A DNA stretch of 64,000 nt, taken from positions 372,001-436,000 of the forward strand of contig RIAY01000001.1 in NCBI GenBank assembly GCA_003833075.1, read 5' to 3'. Within the stretch, counting starts at the first letter, position 1, and each line of letters begins with the position of its first letter. The position numbers were made by a program, and so were the translations under genes. Origin of the DNA: Muribaculaceae bacterium Isolate-036 (Harlan) (lineage in GTDB: Bacteria; Bacteroidota; Bacteroidia; Bacteroidales; Muribaculaceae). This document shows positions 49,454 to 58,577 of the stretch, in pieces. The notes under the pieces are model-generated. The model made no database searches. It was not told the origin of the DNA and saw only the letters and a list, made by a program, of their open reading frames with translations.

Positions 49454-52444
49454 ATGAAACCTTTTAATTTAACATTTGGACGGATGGTGCTTCTTGTGGC
49501 AATGTTGCTGCTGTCGCCGCATGCGTTCGCCCAGGTGAAAAAAATCTCAGGTACCGTGACTGACTCATCGGGTGAGCCGTTGATAGGTGCGAGTGTATTT
49601 GTTGTAGGAACCAATAAGGGAGCTTCGACAGATATGGATGGAAGATACACGATTGAGGCGAAAAGTAACGACAAGGTGCGTTTTTCCTATATCGGGTATA
49701 AGACAAAGACTGTTAAGATTGAGAATCGCACGGTTATCAATATAACGCTTGAGGAGGACAATACGGTGCTTGATGAGGTAGTTGTTATCGGTTACGGCAC
49801 CATGGATAAGAAAGAGTTGACCTCAGCGGTGTCTCATGTCAGTGCGAAAGACTTCCAGTCCATAGCGTCGACAGACGTGTCTATGCTTATTCAGGGCAAA
49901 GTGCCGGGGCTTTCGGTTGTCAACACGGCTGCCGCCGACCCTAACTCGGCAGCGAGTCTCCAGATTCGTGGCGTTTCATCGCGCGAGGCTGGTCTTGGTC
50001 CGTTGATCGTGCTTGACGGTGTGCCCGGAGCAAGTCTCACCAATATCAATCCGAATGATATAGCATCTTTCGACGTGCTGAAGGATGGAGCCGCATCCGC
50101 TATTTATGGTACACGTGGTTCCAATGGTGTGATTATCATCACTACCAAGAAAGGTGCGCAGGATGGAAAGGTGCATACCACTTATTCAGGAACTTTCTCA
50201 TGGGACAAGGCTAACCGTGACCTTGACATGATGAATGCTGAGGAATATAGGGCCTGGCGTATTCCTTCGGGTGATGCAGCAGTGGATCTCGGTGGTAATG
50301 ATGATCTTTTCGATATGGTTTCCCAAACCGGTTTCAAACAGACGCACACTTTGACAATCAGCGGAGGTGGAGCCAATACAAATTATCGGGTATCAGCAGA
50401 TTTTCGCAACGGAGACGGCGTGGAGAAACGAGGAAACCGTGAAGAATATGGTGCTCGTGCCACTATAAATCATGCTACCAAGGGCGGCTTGTTTAACGCC
50501 ACCTTGAATGTCGCACCCCGTATCGTCTATCGCAAACTTGCTGATAATGACGTGTTCCGTCGTGCGATAGAAGCGAATCCGACCACACCTGTATGGGATC
50601 CCAATGTTCCCGGGAAATATTATGATTTCTCAACTGTCAATGGTTTCGTGAATCCCATGGAATCTATAGATCTTGTGCAAGACAAGAGTCAGGAGAAGGT
50701 GCTCGACTGGGACGCTACCGTCAAGCTTAATCTCCTTCCCCTTTTCCTTCCTAACGCAAAATACAGTCAGAATCTGTCGACTCAGATAACTTTCGCCGAT
50801 CATCAATACAATAACGACGGCAGTTATTTCGAACCGTCGACAATGAATCAGAACCTTAAGATAAAGAAGAAAGGATATGCAAGCCGTACGGCTAACAATG
50901 CCCGTAGCATGAGTCTTGAATGGCTTGTTAATTATAATATCGGAATAAAGGATCATAATATCCGTGCCATGGCGGGTTATTCATACCAGTATTGGCAGAA
51001 CTCAGGTTTCTCCGCCAATAACTATGACTTCGCCAACGACGGTCTCGGTGCTGACAATCTTGGTTCCGGAGAGGGCGCCAAGGAGGAAGGAGAGGTAGGC
51101 ATGAGCAGTTACCGTAACGACAACAAGCTTATTGCATTTTTCGGACGTGTAAACTACGACTATGCCGGACGTTATCTCTTCACAGCTTCTTTGCGTCATG
51201 AGGGTTCATCCAAATTCGGAAAGAATCACAAATGGGGTAATTTCCCTGCCGTATCCGCCGGCTGGCGCATATCCGAAGAGGAATTTATGAAGGATACTTC
51301 CTCATGGTTGAATGAATTGAAGATACGTGCTGACTTCGGTGTCACCGGTAATCAGGAATTTGGCAGCTATCTGTCGCTTGACACAATGGGCTCTTTCGGC
51401 TATAGCTACTACAACGGACAGTGGGTGAAAGTGTGGGGACCCGGAAAGAATGTCAATCCAGACCTTCATTGGGAGAAAGGAAAGAACTGGAATATTGGTC
51501 TTGATTTCTCACTCTTCAATAACAGGCTCTATGGTTCGTTCAACTATTTCAACCGCCGCCAGCAGGATCTGTTAGGTAATTATCGGGTGCCAATGCCTCC
51601 TTATCTCTTCACTCACACCTATGTGAATGTGGGAACAATGAAGAACACCGGCTTTGAGTTCGATATCACCTTTAACGCCGTCCAGACACGTGATTTCACG
51701 TATACCATGAATTTCATAGGTACAACGCAATCCAACAAGTTTGTGGATTTCAGTAACTCCGAATTTGTAGGTAACGATTATTATGACGTTGCTTATACGG
51801 AAAATCCTTATCCGAATATTCCGCTCCAGCGAATTGAGAAAGGACGTTCTATCGGAAGTTTCTATATGTTCAAATATGCCGGTATCAATACCGATGGCGA
51901 ATGGCTCATATATGACAAGGATGGAGACATCATCAAGGGTATTCAGGGTTCTGAGGCTGACCGCCAGTATGTAGGCAACGGCTTGCCCAAGTTCACGCTC
52001 TCTACAAGCCACAATTTCCGCTATAAGAATTTTGACCTTTCCCTTTTCTTCCGTGGTGCGTTCGGTTTTGATATATTCAACATCCACGACTTCTATTACG
52101 GCACACGCAATTTCCCCGGAAACATGCTGTGTAAGGCATATCAGAAGAATGAGAAGATTTCATCGAAACAGAATCCCATTGTTTCCGATTATTTTCTGGA
52201 ACGCGGTGATTATTTCAAACTCGATCAGATCACGCTCGGCTACACGCTTCCCACGCCCAAGGCACGATTCATGGATCAGCTCCGAATTTACGGAACAGTC
52301 CGCAATGTGTTCACCATCACAAAATATAGTGGCATGGATCCCTCAAATTTCCAGGTTAATGGTCTTACACCGGGTGCTCACGGCGGTCGTGGATATTATC
52401 CCACCACGCGTCAGTTCATAGTAGGCGTGCAGCTTGATTTCTAA
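49454..52444 (+). CDS. SusC-like TonB-dependent outer-membrane transporter (PUL 2)
   Basis: The 996 residues have a signal peptide (ending HAFAQ), a carboxypeptidase-regulatory-like domain (ISGTVTDSSGEPLIGASVF), a TonB box region (VLDEVVVIGYG), a plug (DVLKDGAASAIYGTRGSNG) and a long barrel ending in RQFIVGVQLDF. It would import oligosaccharides with the SusD part of the next protein. Spacing to that gene is 30 bp. It differs clearly from the PUL 1 SusC, so it has another specificity. Confidence 0.95.
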   Translation: MKPFNLTFGRMVLLVAMLLLSPHAFAQVKKISGTVTDSSGEPLIGASVFVVGTNKGASTDMDGRYTIEAKSNDKVRFSYIGYKTKTVKIENRTVINITLEEDNTVLDEVVVIGYGTMDKKELTSAVSHVSAKDFQSIASTDVSMLIQGKVPGLSVVNTAAADPNSAASLQIRGVSSREAGLGPLIVLDGVPGASLTNINPNDIASFDVLKDGAASAIYGTRGSNGVIIITTKKGAQDGKVHTTYSGTFSWDKANRDLDMMNAEEYRAWRIPSGDAAVDLGGNDDLFDMVSQTGFKQTHTLTISGGGANTNYRVSADFRNGDGVEKRGNREEYGARATINHATKGGLFNATLNVAPRIVYRKLADNDVFRRAIEANPTTPVWDPNVPGKYYDFSTVNGFVNPMESIDLVQDKSQEKVLDWDATVKLNLLPLFLPNAKYSQNLSTQITFADHQYNNDGSYFEPSTMNQNLKIKKKGYASRTANNARSMSLEWLVNYNIGIKDHNIRAMAGYSYQYWQNSGFSANNYDFANDGLGADNLGSGEGAKEEGEVGMSSYRNDNKLIAFFGRVNYDYAGRYLFTASLRHEGSSKFGKNHKWGNFPAVSAGWRISEEEFMKDTSSWLNELKIRADFGVTGNQEFGSYLSLDTMGSFGYSYYNGQWVKVWGPGKNVNPDLHWEKGKNWNIGLDFSLFNNRLYGSFNYFNRRQQDLLGNYRVPMPPYLFTHTYVNVGTMKNTGFEFDITFNAVQTRDFTYTMNFIGTTQSNKFVDFSNSEFVGNDYYDVAYTENPYPNIPLQRIEKGRSIGSFYMFKYAGINTDGEWLIYDKDGDIIKGIQGSEADRQYVGNGLPKFTLSTSHNFRYKNFDLSLFFRGAFGFDIFNIHDFYYGTRNFPGNMLCKAYQKNEKISSKQNPIVSDYFLERGDYFKLDQITLGYTLPTPKARFMDQLRIYGTVRNVFTITKYSGMDPSNFQVNGLTPGAHGGRGYYPTTRQFIVGVQLDF

Positions 52445-52474: not shown

Positions 52475-55400
52475 ATGAAACCATATAAATATTTAGCGGG
52501 CTTGGCTATGGCTACGTTGACATTGTCCGGATGTACGAATCTTGACGAGACAGTGTATGACCAGATAAGCTCCAACAACTATTTCAACACGAAAGAAGAC
52601 GTAATTGCTATGGCGTTCCGTTCTTTTGAGCACGGCTATTGGACAATAGTGCCACGCTTCAGGATTCAGGAGCTTCCGGGTGACCAGCTTATCATTCCCC
52701 GGCGCGACGGAAGCTGGGACGATGGCGGTGTGTGGCGTCAGTTCCATTATCACACATGGACTCCCGATATAGCGCGTCATGTGCATGACGAATGGGATTC
52801 CTGTTTTGCAGGAATCGGACAATGTAATTTCGCTATTGACCGATTCAGCGAGCTAGGTCCTGCAAAATTCGGATTCTCTGAAGAGGAGTTCAATTCATTA
52901 AGGACACAGAACAGGGTGTTGCGTTGCTGGTATTATATCCGTCTGCTTGACGCATTCCGCAATGTGCCCTTCTCAGTGAGCTATGATGATCCGTCGAAGA
53001 ACAGCATGGCTCAGGTTCCGCCGGAATTTATATTCAACTTTGTAGAGACAGAGCTTAAGGAATCCATTCCTTTGCTCTATAAGAAAGAAAGCCTTGGTTC
53101 CGGCTCTCAGTATGCCAATCTATGGACGCAGGGAGGAGCGGCAGCTTTGCTCGTTAGGTTGTATCTCAATGCAAAAGAATGGATAGGGGTTGATCGTCTC
53201 GCTGATTGTGAGAAGGTTGCGCAGGATATTGTTGACGGTGTTTATGGTGCCTATAAGGTTGATGACCGTTGGGATGCGCCTTTTGATTCAGAGAATGACA
53301 AATGCGACGAACTCGTATTCTTCTTCTCCGGATCTTGCAATTACACAAGCTGGCACTACAATCAACTATATAATTGGGGCGTGCCATCCAATTCAGAACT
53401 TTTCTTTAACGACTATAAGGTGAAGCATGGCGGACATAACGGAGAGTTTGTATGCTCGCCGAGTTATGACCCTACGGGCATGCTTTATGATTTTGAACTC
53501 GGCATGACGGTGCAGAAATTCAGGAAATATCCCGGAGATGTGCGTCTGGCGAAATATAAGAACCTCGGAGGAGGTAAACGTGAGGGAATGTTCCTTTTCG
53601 GCAATCTTGAATATACTCAGAACGGAATTAAGCGTAAGTTGAAGGCTCCTGAGATGCCATATGACCTTTGCATCCGTGATGCAGTGGGACAGTTCCATTA
53701 CATGAAAGAAGACAAGTGGCTTACATCCGCGAATAGCGACATGACCACCGGTGATTATAACTCCGGATGGTACACGGTGAAGTATCCGATGTATAGCGAC
53801 ACGGATCCGGGTGCCGGAGAAAGTGACTTTGCGGAAATCCGTCTGCCGGAGATCATATATGCTCTTGCAGAGTGCAAGCTTCGTAAGGGAGATGCAACGG
53901 GTGCCGGTAAACTTCTCAACAGTGTGCGCCGACGTTATTATCCCCAGGCAATGCTCAGACATGTGCTGTATGCACCTGAAGGTAATGTGGATCTTGACAT
54001 GGACGAGATGCTTGACGAGTGGGGACGTGAGTTCTTGGCAGAGGGACGCCGCCGTATAGATTTGATCCGTTTCGGAAAATTCTGTACCGGAAAATGGTGG
54101 GACAAGAATCCGGATGCCGACGACCATGCGAAGATATATCCTGTGCCGCGTTCCTTGACGCGCAATTCGCAGGATCAGGTGCTTTATCCGGAAGTTACGG
54201 ATCGCCCCGATTTCACATGGGTTGTTACGGATCATCCCGGGGCGCGAGAATATATCGACGGATTTTTCAAGCATTACCATGACATGGGTGTGAATTTCGT
54301 AAGGATGGACTTCATGTGCTGGTATGAGGATGGCGATCCGGGACGCGATTATCCGGTGACGTGCGGTTACGGAAGAGAGCGTTATGAGCGCGGTCTTGCC
54401 TACATCTGTGAGTCTGCTTCCAAATACGGTATTTTCACATCTATCGTGATGCCTGAACTTTACAATGACGGCGAATTGGAAAGGAAATATTGCAACATGA
54501 CCCGTATCGTTCAGGATACGAATATAGGAGGTTGGCATCATTTCTCCTCTTTCAACAGGGGTAAGATTTATGACCGCTGGCCTTATGCCGACAATCAGTT
54601 TGACGGCTTCACCCATTGGAGCCATATCGGAGGAAAGGGGAAGGTTATCCTTGATGGTGACTTCTTGCGTCTCAACAAATGTGATAATGATGACGAACGT
54701 CGTTCGCAGGTGTCGCTGCAATTGATTGCCGGTGGTCCGGTGGCGATTGCGGATACGCCGGAAACAATCGGTGACTTGTCCCAATTCTATACCAATGATG
54801 AATTGCTTGCACTGAATAAGGATGGCTTTGTGGGTAAACCTTTGTCCGATGTAGTCAACAGCGAGAAAAGTTGTCGCTGGTGGGGGACAATGACTAATGG
54901 GGACGTGGTTATTGCCATGTTCAACAGGGAATCGGTTTCAAGGACAATGAGTATGAATCTGGAGGAAATAGGTCTTGTAGGATCATATCGTGTCCGTGAC
55001 CTTTGGGCACATGTCTATGAGGAGTCGGTGACTGGCACTTATAAGGCTCAGATTCCCGCTCATGGCTGCAAGGTGGTAAGGCTTATGCAGAAGGATGCTC
55101 CTCATCCATCTGAGATTTTCCTTATCGGCAAAGCCACTCCTGCTTATTGGAATATAGATCAGGCAAGTGAAACGCTTCGTGAAGATGACGGCACGTTCGT
55201 TTACAGTGGTCCTTTGTTTCGAGGAGAGATAAGGTTTGTAAGCGAACGGGATTGGCATTCTGTAAATTATATGCCTGAACACAATGGCACATGGCTCACG
55301 GATGGAAACAAAGTGGAAGTTTTCAATGGAGATCCACATGAGCTGGCGAAGCATTGGTGGGTAAATGAAAGCGGCACATACGAGGTGAGAATCAAGGTGT

Positions 55401-56038
55401 CTGCTTCGGGCAATATGGCGTCAGTTTCGGCAATACGCATTGGAGATCTGCCTCCGATGGTGACTTTGCTTGGTGCCGCATCCGGCTTTTGGGAAAGCGC
55501 ATACGCTCCGGTTATTTATCCTCAGGAGGGTTCTTCCGACATTTTCGTATGGGAGGGCGCGGTGAAACCTACTGCCGACAGGAAGCATTTCAAGTTTGCA
55601 GCAAGTCCCGGAGAACCGGCGGAAACAACATTCATGATTCCGGAAACGGTGGATTATAACGGAAATGTAAAGACTGTGAAATTAGGGGAGACCTATAAAT
55701 ACTGCGAAGAAACCGGAGGCGGCAGTGATCATTTCTGGGGATTCGCACCTTTGGATTGCGGTCATTGCAAAGTGATTGTCAATAAGTCTGACAAGACCGT
55801 GTCTTTTTTAGACAGACATACGTCGGCAATATGCCAAACCGGTGTTGATTTTGCACTGAAGGCTTATTTCCGGGGAGAAAACCTTATTGTGGAGAGTGTA
55901 GATGAAGAAGTGGAGGTTTATGACCTTTCCGGACGATGCATTGTGCGGACGGATACCGGCTGGCTTTCTGTGAATTGCCCGTCTTCAGGTATATATATCG
56001 TGCATTCAGGCGGTCACACTCTCAAACTTGTAAAATGA
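52475..56038 (+). CDS. SusD-glycosidase-SusE/F-like-T9SS fusion protein
   Basis: One uninterrupted 1187-residue ORF. Residues 1-560 are a SusD lipoprotein (signal LSGCTNLDE; DEWGREFLAEGRRRIDLIRF near 530). At KIYPVPRS the SusD ends early and runs straight into residues 560-870, the C-terminal two thirds of a clan GH-D glycosidase nearly identical to part of the next gene, keeping nucleophile D612 and acid/base D681 but lacking the first three barrel strands. Residues 880-1110 are SusE/F-like carbohydrate-binding domains, and 1120-1187 a T9SS tail. A lipid anchor and a T9SS tail on one protein is contradictory. It looks born by recombination between SusD and a GH-SusE pair. Function of the GH part is doubtful. 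Confidence 0.85.
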   Translation: MKPYKYLAGLAMATLTLSGCTNLDETVYDQISSNNYFNTKEDVIAMAFRSFEHGYWTIVPRFRIQELPGDQLIIPRRDGSWDDGGVWRQFHYHTWTPDIARHVHDEWDSCFAGIGQCNFAIDRFSELGPAKFGFSEEEFNSLRTQNRVLRCWYYIRLLDAFRNVPFSVSYDDPSKNSMAQVPPEFIFNFVETELKESIPLLYKKESLGSGSQYANLWTQGGAAALLVRLYLNAKEWIGVDRLADCEKVAQDIVDGVYGAYKVDDRWDAPFDSENDKCDELVFFFSGSCNYTSWHYNQLYNWGVPSNSELFFNDYKVKHGGHNGEFVCSPSYDPTGMLYDFELGMTVQKFRKYPGDVRLAKYKNLGGGKREGMFLFGNLEYTQNGIKRKLKAPEMPYDLCIRDAVGQFHYMKEDKWLTSANSDMTTGDYNSGWYTVKYPMYSDTDPGAGESDFAEIRLPEIIYALAECKLRKGDATGAGKLLNSVRRRYYPQAMLRHVLYAPEGNVDLDMDEMLDEWGREFLAEGRRRIDLIRFGKFCTGKWWDKNPDADDHAKIYPVPRSLTRNSQDQVLYPEVTDRPDFTWVVTDHPGAREYIDGFFKHYHDMGVNFVRMDFMCWYEDGDPGRDYPVTCGYGRERYERGLAYICESASKYGIFTSIVMPELYNDGELERKYCNMTRIVQDTNIGGWHHFSSFNRGKIYDRWPYADNQFDGFTHWSHIGGKGKVILDGDFLRLNKCDNDDERRSQVSLQLIAGGPVAIADTPETIGDLSQFYTNDELLALNKDGFVGKPLSDVVNSEKSCRWWGTMTNGDVVIAMFNRESVSRTMSMNLEEIGLVGSYRVRDLWAHVYEESVTGTYKAQIPAHGCKVVRLMQKDAPHPSEIFLIGKATPAYWNIDQASETLREDDGTFVYSGPLFRGEIRFVSERDWHSVNYMPEHNGTWLTDGNKVEVFNGDPHELAKHWWVNESGTYEVRIKVSASGNMASVSAIRIGDLPPMVTLLGAASGFWESAYAPVIYPQEGSSDIFVWEGAVKPTADRKHFKFAASPGEPAETTFMIPETVDYNGNVKTVKLGETYKYCEETGGGSDHFWGFAPLDCGHCKVIVNKSDKTVSFLDRHTSAICQTGVDFALKAYFRGENLIVESVDEEVEVYDLSGRCIVRTDTGWLSVNCPSSGIYIVHSGGHTLKLVK
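54300..54546 (+). repeat. 247-bp tract identical to 56731-56977
   Basis: These 247 bases, covering both catalytic aspartates, are identical base for base to 56731-56977, while the sequence on both sides differs at many synonymous sites. This is best explained by recent gene conversion between the fused and the intact glycosidase. Confidence 0.95.
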
Positions 56039-56051
56039 TTAACCGAATCAG

Positions 56052-56071
56052 AATTTTCAATACTTACTTAT
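56052..56071 (+). repeat. 20-bp repeat shared with 58892-58911
   Basis: AATTTTCAATACTTACTTAT occurs here, running into the ATG of the intact glycosidase, and again at 58892-58911, 24 bases before the GH43 gene. The exact repeat before two PUL genes may be a shared regulatory site or a scar of the rearrangement that built this region. Confidence 0.7.
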
Positions 56072-57524
56072 GAAAAGATTTATTAACACGAAAAAGATAA
56101 TAACAGCATTGTTTTGCGCCTCTGTGGCGATTACGGTTTCGTGCAAGGACAATAACGTGGAGGGACCGGTGGAACCCACCCCTGATCCTGCTCCGGAACT
56201 GCCTGAATTGCCTGTTCCAGGTGATATTCATAAATATAAGGCTCCGCTTTATTGGACAATCTATGAATATGCACGAGAGATGGAGCTTGCCGGAATCCCG
56301 TATGATCAGATGGATTTGAGTTCTGATCAATGGGATGCCGTGATCGACATGATGGCTACTAAGTTCAAACCTTATGGCTACAACATGATCTGCACCGACG
56401 GATTTCTTCCTCAGAAGGCAAGAGACGGAGGCATTTATATGTCGCATTATGGTTCGATGCCCCTTAAAGAGCTTGTGCGTCGTGCCAAGGAAAAGGGACT
56501 GAAGGTCGGTATTTATGACAACCCATTGTGGATCAAGGGGAATCTTGACAGCAAGGTGCCCGGAACAAATTATTCTTTACGCTCGCTGACACGCAACCCT
56601 CAAGATAAAGTGCTTTATCCTGACGTTACAGACAGGACAGATTTCACATGGCTTGTCACCGATCATCCGGGAGCACGTGAATATATCGATGGCTTTTTCA
56701 AGCATTACCACGACTTGGGTGTGGATTACATAAGGATGGACTTCATGTGCTGGTATGAGGATGGCGATCCGGGACGCGATTATCCGGTGACGTGCGGTTA
56801 CGGAAGAGAGCGTTATGAGCGCGGTCTTGCCTACATCTGTGAGTCTGCTTCCAAATACGGTATTTTCACATCTATCGTGATGCCTGAACTTTACAATGAC
56901 GGCGAATTGGAAAGGAAATATTGCAACATGACCCGTATCGTTCAGGATACGAATATAGGAGGTTGGCATCATTTCTCTTCTTTCAACAGGGGCAAGATAT
57001 ATGACCGCTGGCCTTATGCCGACAATCAGATGGACGGTTTCACGCACTGGAGCCATATAGGCGGAAAGGGGAAAATTATCCTTGACGGTGATTTCCTTCG
57101 CCTTAACAAATGTGCCAATGACGATGAACGCCGTTCACAGGTGTCACTGCAGCTGATAGCCGGAGGTCCTGTGACCATCGCCGACACCCCCGAGACTATA
57201 GGAAATCTTGACAAGTTCTATACCAATGAAGAGCTCCTTGCCTTGAATACCGACGGATTTATAGGAAAACCATTATCTGACGAGATCGACAGCGAAGGCA
57301 GTTGCATATGGTATGGCACGATGAGCAATGGAGATGTCGTGATGGCGATGTTCAACAGAGAGGAAGCTCCTCGCAAAATGAGCGTGAATCTTTCGGAAAT
57401 CGGACTTTCCGGAGAATACAAAGTGCGAGACCTTTGGAAACATGCCGATGAATCCGCAGTTGAATCCGTTTTCACGGTTACTGTCCCGCGTCATGGTTGT
57501 AAAGTTGTTAAACTCACAAAATAA
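56070..57524 (+). CDS. Clan GH-D glycoside hydrolase (GH27/GH36-like), intact copy
   Basis: The 484 residues begin with a lipoprotein signal (ITVSCKDNN). A TIM barrel follows with strands LYWTIYEY, YNMICTDGF and LKVGIYDNPL, then GVDYIRMDF with nucleophile D224 and RIVQDTNIGGW with acid/base D293, then a small beta domain. This is the clan that holds alpha-galactosidases and the isomalto-dextranases of GH27. With SusE/F-like and GH31 partners, an alpha-glucan such as dextran is as likely a substrate as an alpha-galactoside. It is the complete form of the piece fused at 52475. The ATG follows the 20-bp repeat. Confidence 0.82.
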   Translation: MKRFINTKKIITALFCASVAITVSCKDNNVEGPVEPTPDPAPELPELPVPGDIHKYKAPLYWTIYEYAREMELAGIPYDQMDLSSDQWDAVIDMMATKFKPYGYNMICTDGFLPQKARDGGIYMSHYGSMPLKELVRRAKEKGLKVGIYDNPLWIKGNLDSKVPGTNYSLRSLTRNPQDKVLYPDVTDRTDFTWLVTDHPGAREYIDGFFKHYHDLGVDYIRMDFMCWYEDGDPGRDYPVTCGYGRERYERGLAYICESASKYGIFTSIVMPELYNDGELERKYCNMTRIVQDTNIGGWHHFSSFNRGKIYDRWPYADNQMDGFTHWSHIGGKGKIILDGDFLRLNKCANDDERRSQVSLQLIAGGPVTIADTPETIGNLDKFYTNEELLALNTDGFIGKPLSDEIDSEGSCIWYGTMSNGDVVMAMFNREEAPRKMSVNLSEIGLSGEYKVRDLWKHADESAVESVFTVTVPRHGCKVVKLTK

Positions 57525-57548: not shown

Positions 57549-58577
57549 ATGAAACAAAATTTACTTAAGGCGATGGCATTAGGCGGTGTCATGCTGTTGA
57601 ATGCAGTCTCTATTTCTGCTGCAATTCCCGAACATCTTTATATGGTAGGCGAAGCTTCGCCAAGTCTGTGGCATATTGATCTGGCTCAGGAAATGACTAA
57701 CGAGGGCGATGGGGTATTCAGCTATCGCGGTAACCTTTATAATCAGAACCTTCAGTTTATTGATGCAAGAAACTGGGGTGGAGTGCGTTATGTTCCGGAA
57801 CATTCAGGCACATGGCTTATTAATGCACACGAGGCGAACGTTATAAGTGCTGTCGGGAATGAAAACCGTTGGTGGGTGACTGAGCCGGGAACCTATGATG
57901 TTAAAGTCTATTTTAGTGATAACGGTGAATCTGTGATGATAACTGCGCAATGGGTTGACGAGTTGTCTCCGTTGGTTGTTCCCCTTGGAGCTGCCACAAA
58001 TCAGTGGGACACGGCATCTGTTCCTCCCACATTCAACATTTATCCTGAAGAAGGAACCGAGGATGTATTCGTATGGGAGGGTACGCTGTCTCCTAATGAC
58101 GGTTGCAGTCATTTTAAATTTATCTCCTATCCGAGTAATTATTGGGAGACTTGGTTCTATGTTCCATCCGAATTGGATTTTAACGGAAACGTGAAGCTTG
58201 TAAAGGCGGGAGAAACATATCCGGTAAGAAGAACTTGGGGCAATAGTGAAAACGCTCAAGACCATTTCTGGGGATTCCCGGCAGAGGCATGCACTCCTGA
58301 TAAAAAATATAAGGTGACACTTAACCTTGGTGAGAATACAATAAAATTTGAGAACATTGTAGAGTCAGGAGTTAATGAAATTGCCGGAACTGAATTGAAA
58401 GCAAGCTTTATAGGTGGTGACCTGGTTGTGGAGGGTGCTTCCGCCGGAATTGAAGTCTATGACATATCCGGTCGTAAGGTGGCTCAGTCAAATGGTGGCT
58501 CACTTACCGTTGCAGGCCTTTCCAATGGAGTCTATGTTGTGAAGACAGCAGGCAAGGCGGTCAAGATTGCGAAATAA
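57549..58577 (+). CDS. SusE/F-like surface glycan-binding protein with T9SS tail
   Basis: The 342 residues have a plain signal peptide (SISAA), two SusE/F-like domains (HLYMVGEASPSLWHIDLA and VVPLGAATNQWDTA) and a T9SS sorting tail (VYDISGRKVAQSNGGSLTV). Each domain resembles its counterpart at the end of the 52475 fusion, so the two are paralogues. It should be exported by type IX secretion and held at the surface to bind glycans. It lies 24 bp after the glycosidase gene. Confidence 0.85.
   Translation: MKQNLLKAMALGGVMLLNAVSISAAIPEHLYMVGEASPSLWHIDLAQEMTNEGDGVFSYRGNLYNQNLQFIDARNWGGVRYVPEHSGTWLINAHEANVISAVGNENRWWVTEPGTYDVKVYFSDNGESVMITAQWVDELSPLVVPLGAATNQWDTASVPPTFNIYPEEGTEDVFVWEGTLSPNDGCSHFKFISYPSNYWETWFYVPSELDFNGNVKLVKAGETYPVRRTWGNSENAQDHFWGFPAEACTPDKKYKVTLNLGENTIKFENIVESGVNEIAGTELKASFIGGDLVVEGASAGIEVYDISGRKVAQSNGGSLTVAGLSNGVYVVKTAGKAVKIAK

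Follow-up and report, generated by a model that had tools for sequence, protein, structure and literature searches.

Probable recent gene conversion between tandem GH27-like glycosidase genes in a Sus-type carbohydrate locus of a gut Bacteroidales genome

Introduction

How can two glycosidase genes that have clearly diverged from each other share a stretch of 247 bp in which not a single base, synonymous or otherwise, differs? This question is raised by a tandem pair of genes, GH1 and GH2, found in a 64-kb window (the whole stretch of DNA analysed in this study). An earlier note on the same DNA had proposed that one copy was recently converted by the other, and this interpretation, which is the best explanation of the data, is supported by the comparisons presented here. 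We consider, with a probability of about 0.8, that a segment of GH2 was recently copied onto GH1 without crossover, after the split from the sister genome G087, and that a separate deletion of approximately 1,007 bp created the fused gene in which GH1 now resides.

Results and Discussion

Organization of the locus

The glycosidase pair is part of an ordinary Sus-type carbohydrate locus, in which it is surrounded by SusC, SusE/F-like, GH43, GH97 and GH31-like genes (the last label is our own and is derived from NCBIfam alpha-glucosidase and alpha-xylosidase matches scoring below the cut-off). The substrate of the locus may be e.g. dextran. All genes described below lie on the + strand. The first gene of the locus (49454-52444) encodes a SusC-like TonB-dependent receptor (Pfam CarbopepD_reg_2, Plug and TonB_dep_Rec_b-barrel), which shares 99.8% identity with its counterpart in G087. 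It is followed by a fused open reading frame of 1187 aa (52475-56038), composed of SusD (without its last 16 aa), the 5'-truncated, GH27-like GH1 and a SusE/F-like C-terminal part, SusE1 (Pfam SusD_RagB, Melibiase_C and SusF_SusE, respectively). Then come GH2 (56070-57524), encoding an intact GH27-like, isomaltodextranase-like glycosidase of 484 aa, and SusE2 (57549-58577), encoding a SusE/F-like protein with a T9SS-type tail (Pfam SusF_SusE, NCBIfam TIGR04183). The SusD domain of the fused frame belongs to the SusD family (PF07980, 67.1 bits with a cut-off of 23.1) and may still be functional. A second related locus is present in the same genome (L041, contig C66 of G000), with SusC, SusD, GH and GH97-like proteins 65%, 58%, 55% and 28% identical, respectively; as a donor of the tract discussed below it was rejected, being too divergent in SusC, SusD and GH.

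GH2 matched the isomaltodextranase structure PDB 5awo (E=2.9e-70), which we take to be a member of GH27, over residues 58-483, and thus over the catalytic domain, with both aspartates discussed below aligned; its sequence is nevertheless distant from that of 5awo and its activity is a prediction. Melibiase_C was found in GH2 with 70.5 bits, whereas Melibiase_2 reached only 20.8 bits (cut-off 23.0), and for this reason the protein is termed GH27-like. GH1 begins at the residue equivalent to position 171 of GH2; unlike 5awo, it has nothing corresponding to residues 1-170 and hence does not contain a complete catalytic barrel. In an AlphaFold2 model of GH2, built from five sequences and of low confidence (mean pLDDT 51.2), so that its secondary structure alone was used, and cautiously, three strands (60-63, 104-108 and 145-149) precede residue 171. 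Together with the 5awo alignment, this suggests that GH1 is devoid of the first three barrel strands. Since these strands would be missing, GH1 is probably inactive as an enzyme despite the presence of both aspartates, and the copied catalytic core is likely to serve no catalysis there.

The identical tract

The tract extends from 54300 to 54546 in GH1 and from 56731 to 56977 in GH2 (both on the + strand), and the two copies are equal at 247 of 247 bases, as the earlier note had stated. No exact direct repeat of the 64-kb window is longer, and the runner-up (30 bp, at 54569 and 57000) also lies within the GH1/GH2 pair. In an ungapped comparison of the two genes (offset 2431), the tract is bounded by mismatches at 54299 and 54547, and the flanks on both sides show approximately 20% divergence. 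The same note had described the flanking coding DNA as diverged, and this was borne out segment by segment: 31 of 150 nt differ upstream of the tract (with synonymous differences in 19 of 50 codons), 48 of 240 nt immediately downstream (33 of 80 codons) and 92 of 261 nt farther downstream. Inside the tract there are no synonymous differences across 82 codons (the lone difference counted in this segment falls at 54299, where the boundary codon begins, and so outside the tract).

A permutation of the 151 differences among the 852 aligned sites, with each difference keeping its codon position (20,000 trials), gave a longest identical run of 75 bp at most (mean 26.6), compared with the 247 bp observed, and a chance origin of the tract was therefore rejected. 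Identity is thus confined to a segment between diverged flanks, and its synonymous component exceeds what selection or chance would leave, as is characteristic of gene conversion. The tract spans two aspartates aligned to D201 and D269 of 5awo (chain numbering, hand-counted on the alignment), presumably the catalytic pair of that enzyme. The inclusion of these two residues, stated in the earlier note, is confirmed by this alignment.

Comparison with the sister genome G087

A comparison with sister strains had been suggested as a check, and it was performed with G087, a genome of the same genus. G087 shares 98.6% identity with the window across 6.26 kb, from 47888 to the fusion junction at 54150. 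Its locus encodes a complete SusD (575 aa), a 155-aa SusE-like lipoprotein, a single glycosidase and SusE2, and the glycosidase gene is a mosaic of GH1-type and GH2-type segments. Between 54149 and 54299 it is GH1-like at 31 of the 32 sites varying among the three sequences (the remaining site differs in all three), and between 54547 and 54739 at 29 of the 30 sites where GH1 and GH2 differ; from 54740 onward it is GH2-like at 130 of 131 such sites. Within the tract, the G087 gene departs from the sequence shared by the window copies at 29 sites, which all fall in 54358-54505. GH1 of the window has thus kept its own markers on both sides of the tract (31/32 and 29/30 as in G087), as expected for an exchange without crossover.

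The segment 54358-54505 (+ strand, 148 bp), in which the window copies agree at the 29 sites where G087 differs, constitutes the minimal converted segment. The proposal that the whole tract was copied therefore holds as regards conversion, but the length that can be proved is 148 bp and not 247 bp. The remainder of the tract consists of two blocks common to GH1, GH2 and G087, of 58 bp (54300-54357, + strand) and 41 bp (54506-54546, + strand), which are the probable left and right recombination arms, respectively. They are the two longest runs of identity between GH2 and pre-conversion GH1 (a proxy sequence built in part from G087) over 1,383 aligned positions, and such pre-existing identity fits the expectation for homologous recombination. 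The 58-bp block could also reflect an older exchange, predating the split from G087.

Direction of the proposed conversion

It is most likely that GH2 overwrote GH1, because the GH1-type gene of G087 carries another tract between GH1-type flanks, whereas GH1 of the window carries that of GH2. The role of donor thus falls very probably to GH2 and that of recipient to the fused GH1. Parsimony is what sets the direction, since G087 was the one close sister genome available and no sister genome retaining an unconverted GH2 tract came to light; at the 29 tract sites, the outgroups sided with neither version.

The opposite course, in which GH1 converted GH2 while G087 independently acquired its tract from elsewhere, appears unlikely. 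It would be compatible with the lack of a sister GH2 tract in the comparison and with the residues of the G087 tract, six of which differ; three of these (L, S and R at 54389, 54398 and 54407) are absent from all other sequences aligned there and could mark an unseen outside donor. However, two events would be required instead of one, the G087 gene is of GH1 type directly on either side of the tract, and the loci compared contain no closer source of its tract, the best match outside G087 (88.3%) being the window itself.

Conversion of GH1 by GH2 can be placed in time only loosely. From 49388 to the junction, the window and G087 differ at 42 of 4,763 nt, and the aligned 6.26 kb in full contains 83 differences in 6,261 nt; a conversion as old as the split from G087 would be expected to have accumulated 2.2 to 3.3 differences between the two tracts, with a probability of 0.11 to 0.04 of finding none. 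The event is therefore probably younger than this split, the bound being a weak one.

Proposed sequence of events

The ancestral gene order would have been SusC - SusD - small SusE lipoprotein - GH1-SusE1 - GH2 - SusE2, which is the order that persists in genome G132. After the split from G087, GH2 may have served as a repair template for a putative lesion in GH1, approximately 2.4 kb distant, with strand invasion probably occurring via the 58- and 41-bp blocks, the longest pre-existing identity. The segment between these arms, at least 148 bp and at most 247 bp long, would then have been copied from GH2 to GH1, leaving the GH1-type flanks in place. The enzymes and the lesion assumed here follow general knowledge of RecA-type recombination.

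The fusion of SusD with GH1 stems from a deletion separate from the conversion. Relative to G087, approximately 1,007 bp are absent at a junction located by blastn at 54149-54150 (+ strand), where a 2-bp microhomology (CG) is found. The missing DNA held the final 16 codons of SusD, the gene for the small lipoprotein and that portion of GH1 which matches residues 1-170 of GH2, and its loss produced the single in-frame SusD-GH1-SusE1 open reading frame. In a search of the genus (111 genomes, 19 of which matched parts of the fused protein), a SusD/glycosidase junction within one protein was found, among the matches listed, in the window only. Fusions of the glycosidase with SusE1 are present as an 810-aa frame in G132 (L035) and an 860-aa frame in G656 (L102), and the glycosidase-SusE1 fusion thus predates that of SusD with GH1.

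Alternative explanations of the identity

Homologous recombination with DNA from another cell could also have placed a GH2-type segment in GH1, and the exact sequence by itself cannot discriminate such an import from intrachromosomal copying; moreover, the locus apparently moves between families. This origin is nevertheless improbable, as the genome itself contains an identical donor at a distance of about 2.4 kb.

More improbable still is an artefact of assembly, in which reads of both copies were merged or the consensus overwrote one of them. The assembly consists of 68 contigs, a repeat of 247 bp is longer than the k-mers usually applied to short reads, and a contig of UBA7048 (L038:8627) stops 29 bp into the homologous tract, which hints that the region can break assemblies (for G309, the genome matching UBA7048, there was no second close copy among the matches listed). 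Copies as unlike as those of G087 and GH2 (29/247, approximately 12%) would, however, assemble separately. Both window copies are located on one contig and have four distinct flanks, which leaves a single full path through a two-copy repeat; the same phenomenon occurs independently in G656, a one-contig genome; and the fusion junction, with its 2 bp of identity, is hardly a product of an assembler.

Finally, DNA- or RNA-level selection (an overlapping signal or codon usage) acting without exchange on a segment that encodes the best-conserved portion of the barrel has a negligible probability and, as a sole cause, was rejected, because the near-identical locus of G087 differs at 29 of 247 tract sites and synonymously in 20 of 82 codons (a refutation that holds unless the G087 tract is foreign) and the copies of G132 and G325 differ at more than 40 tract sites. 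Conversion of GH1 by GH2 remains the preferred reading.

Comparison with known systems

Gene conversion between paralogues is already known, e.g. for the PE/PPE genes of Mycobacterium tuberculosis (PMC12046097), and long-lasting concerted evolution has been documented in prokaryotes (PMC6053082). As in the PE/PPE genes, copying between paralogues of the same chromosome is non-reciprocal and the clustered variants of the target exactly match the source; an interrupted tract, such as that of G656 described below, is also part of the PE/PPE case (PMC12046097). The phylum and the gene class are different here, and whereas long reads served to resolve the PE/PPE copies in an outbreak, a single event is deduced in this study from a sister genome. 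Recurrent homogenisation of duplicate genes is shared with concerted evolution, but the latter spans hundreds of millions of years (PMC6053082), while here a short patch is involved, the N- and C-terminal parts have diverged and one of three pairs (that of G132) carries no signal.

A literature search covering gene conversion in such loci, in SusC, in glycoside hydrolases and in tandem bacterial paralogues, with most subscription journals outside its scope, yielded no such case by title or abstract opening. The process itself is known, and the novelty lies in a polarised example from a carbohydrate-utilisation locus. It is a clean intragenomic conversion between glycosidase paralogues of a gut Bacteroidales member, in which the likely recombination arms are visible and for which a larger second case exists in a distant relative. 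Two warnings follow from it: trees based on the catalytic core of tandem enzymes can mislead, and a perfectly conserved-looking catalytic core may reside in a copy missing a third of the enzyme domain.

Other tandem pairs

Three tandem pairs were examined, of which two bear traces of recent conversion, and a crossover was found in a fourth genome, G087. As the G087 gene is a GH1/GH2 crossover product, the GH1/GH2 pair does recombine. The crossover point lies between sites 54739 and 54743, where the window copies are identical over just 3 bp; this is odd for an ordinary homologous crossover, unless the copies in G087 were more alike at this place.

In G656, a genome of another family represented by one 3.08-Mb contig, two glycosidase copies approximately 3.35 kb apart share exact runs of 527, 245, 217 and 77 bp. 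They are separated in their downstream part by only one substitution and one A5/A4 indel, contain an unconverted island with 23 differences within 56474-56547 (GH2 coordinates), and differ in their C-terminal parts at 33 of 80 and 37 of 80 sites. This pattern points to an independent, larger conversion, for which collapse of the assembly would be hard to invoke. For the G132 pair, conversion was unsupported, the longest exact run being 25 bp; the copy G132b had G132a as its nearest neighbour in 601, 190 and 29 of 1000 bootstraps for the N-barrel, core and C-terminal parts, respectively.

A tentative and rather doubtful extension of these observations is that tandem isomaltodextranase-like pairs are a recurrent hot spot of recombination, in which barrels are homogenised while signal peptides, C-terminal sandwiches and SusE domains diverge, with chimeras (G087) and patchy conversions (G656) as products. 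If this were true, the locus would act as a natural shuffler of modules, and mutations in the barrel would be overwritten.

Several minor features of the G656 locus (L102, family f109) should also be mentioned. Its SusC, SusD and GH31 proteins share 79%, 83% and 87% identity, respectively, with those of the window. A close match to GH2 (84-86%) turned up in only one of nine genomes of family f109, namely G656, which suggests acquisition of the locus by horizontal transfer. The first glycosidase copy (L102:5990-7539) is frameshifted by one base (A4, compared with A5 in the second copy) within the converted stretch, a change that could stem from genuine decay of the gene or from faulty sequencing. 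In the same locus, L102:7608-9425 encodes two SusE2-like units in one 605-aa frame with a 99-bp exact repeat (7859/8606), which is probably a further internal duplication with recent exchange.
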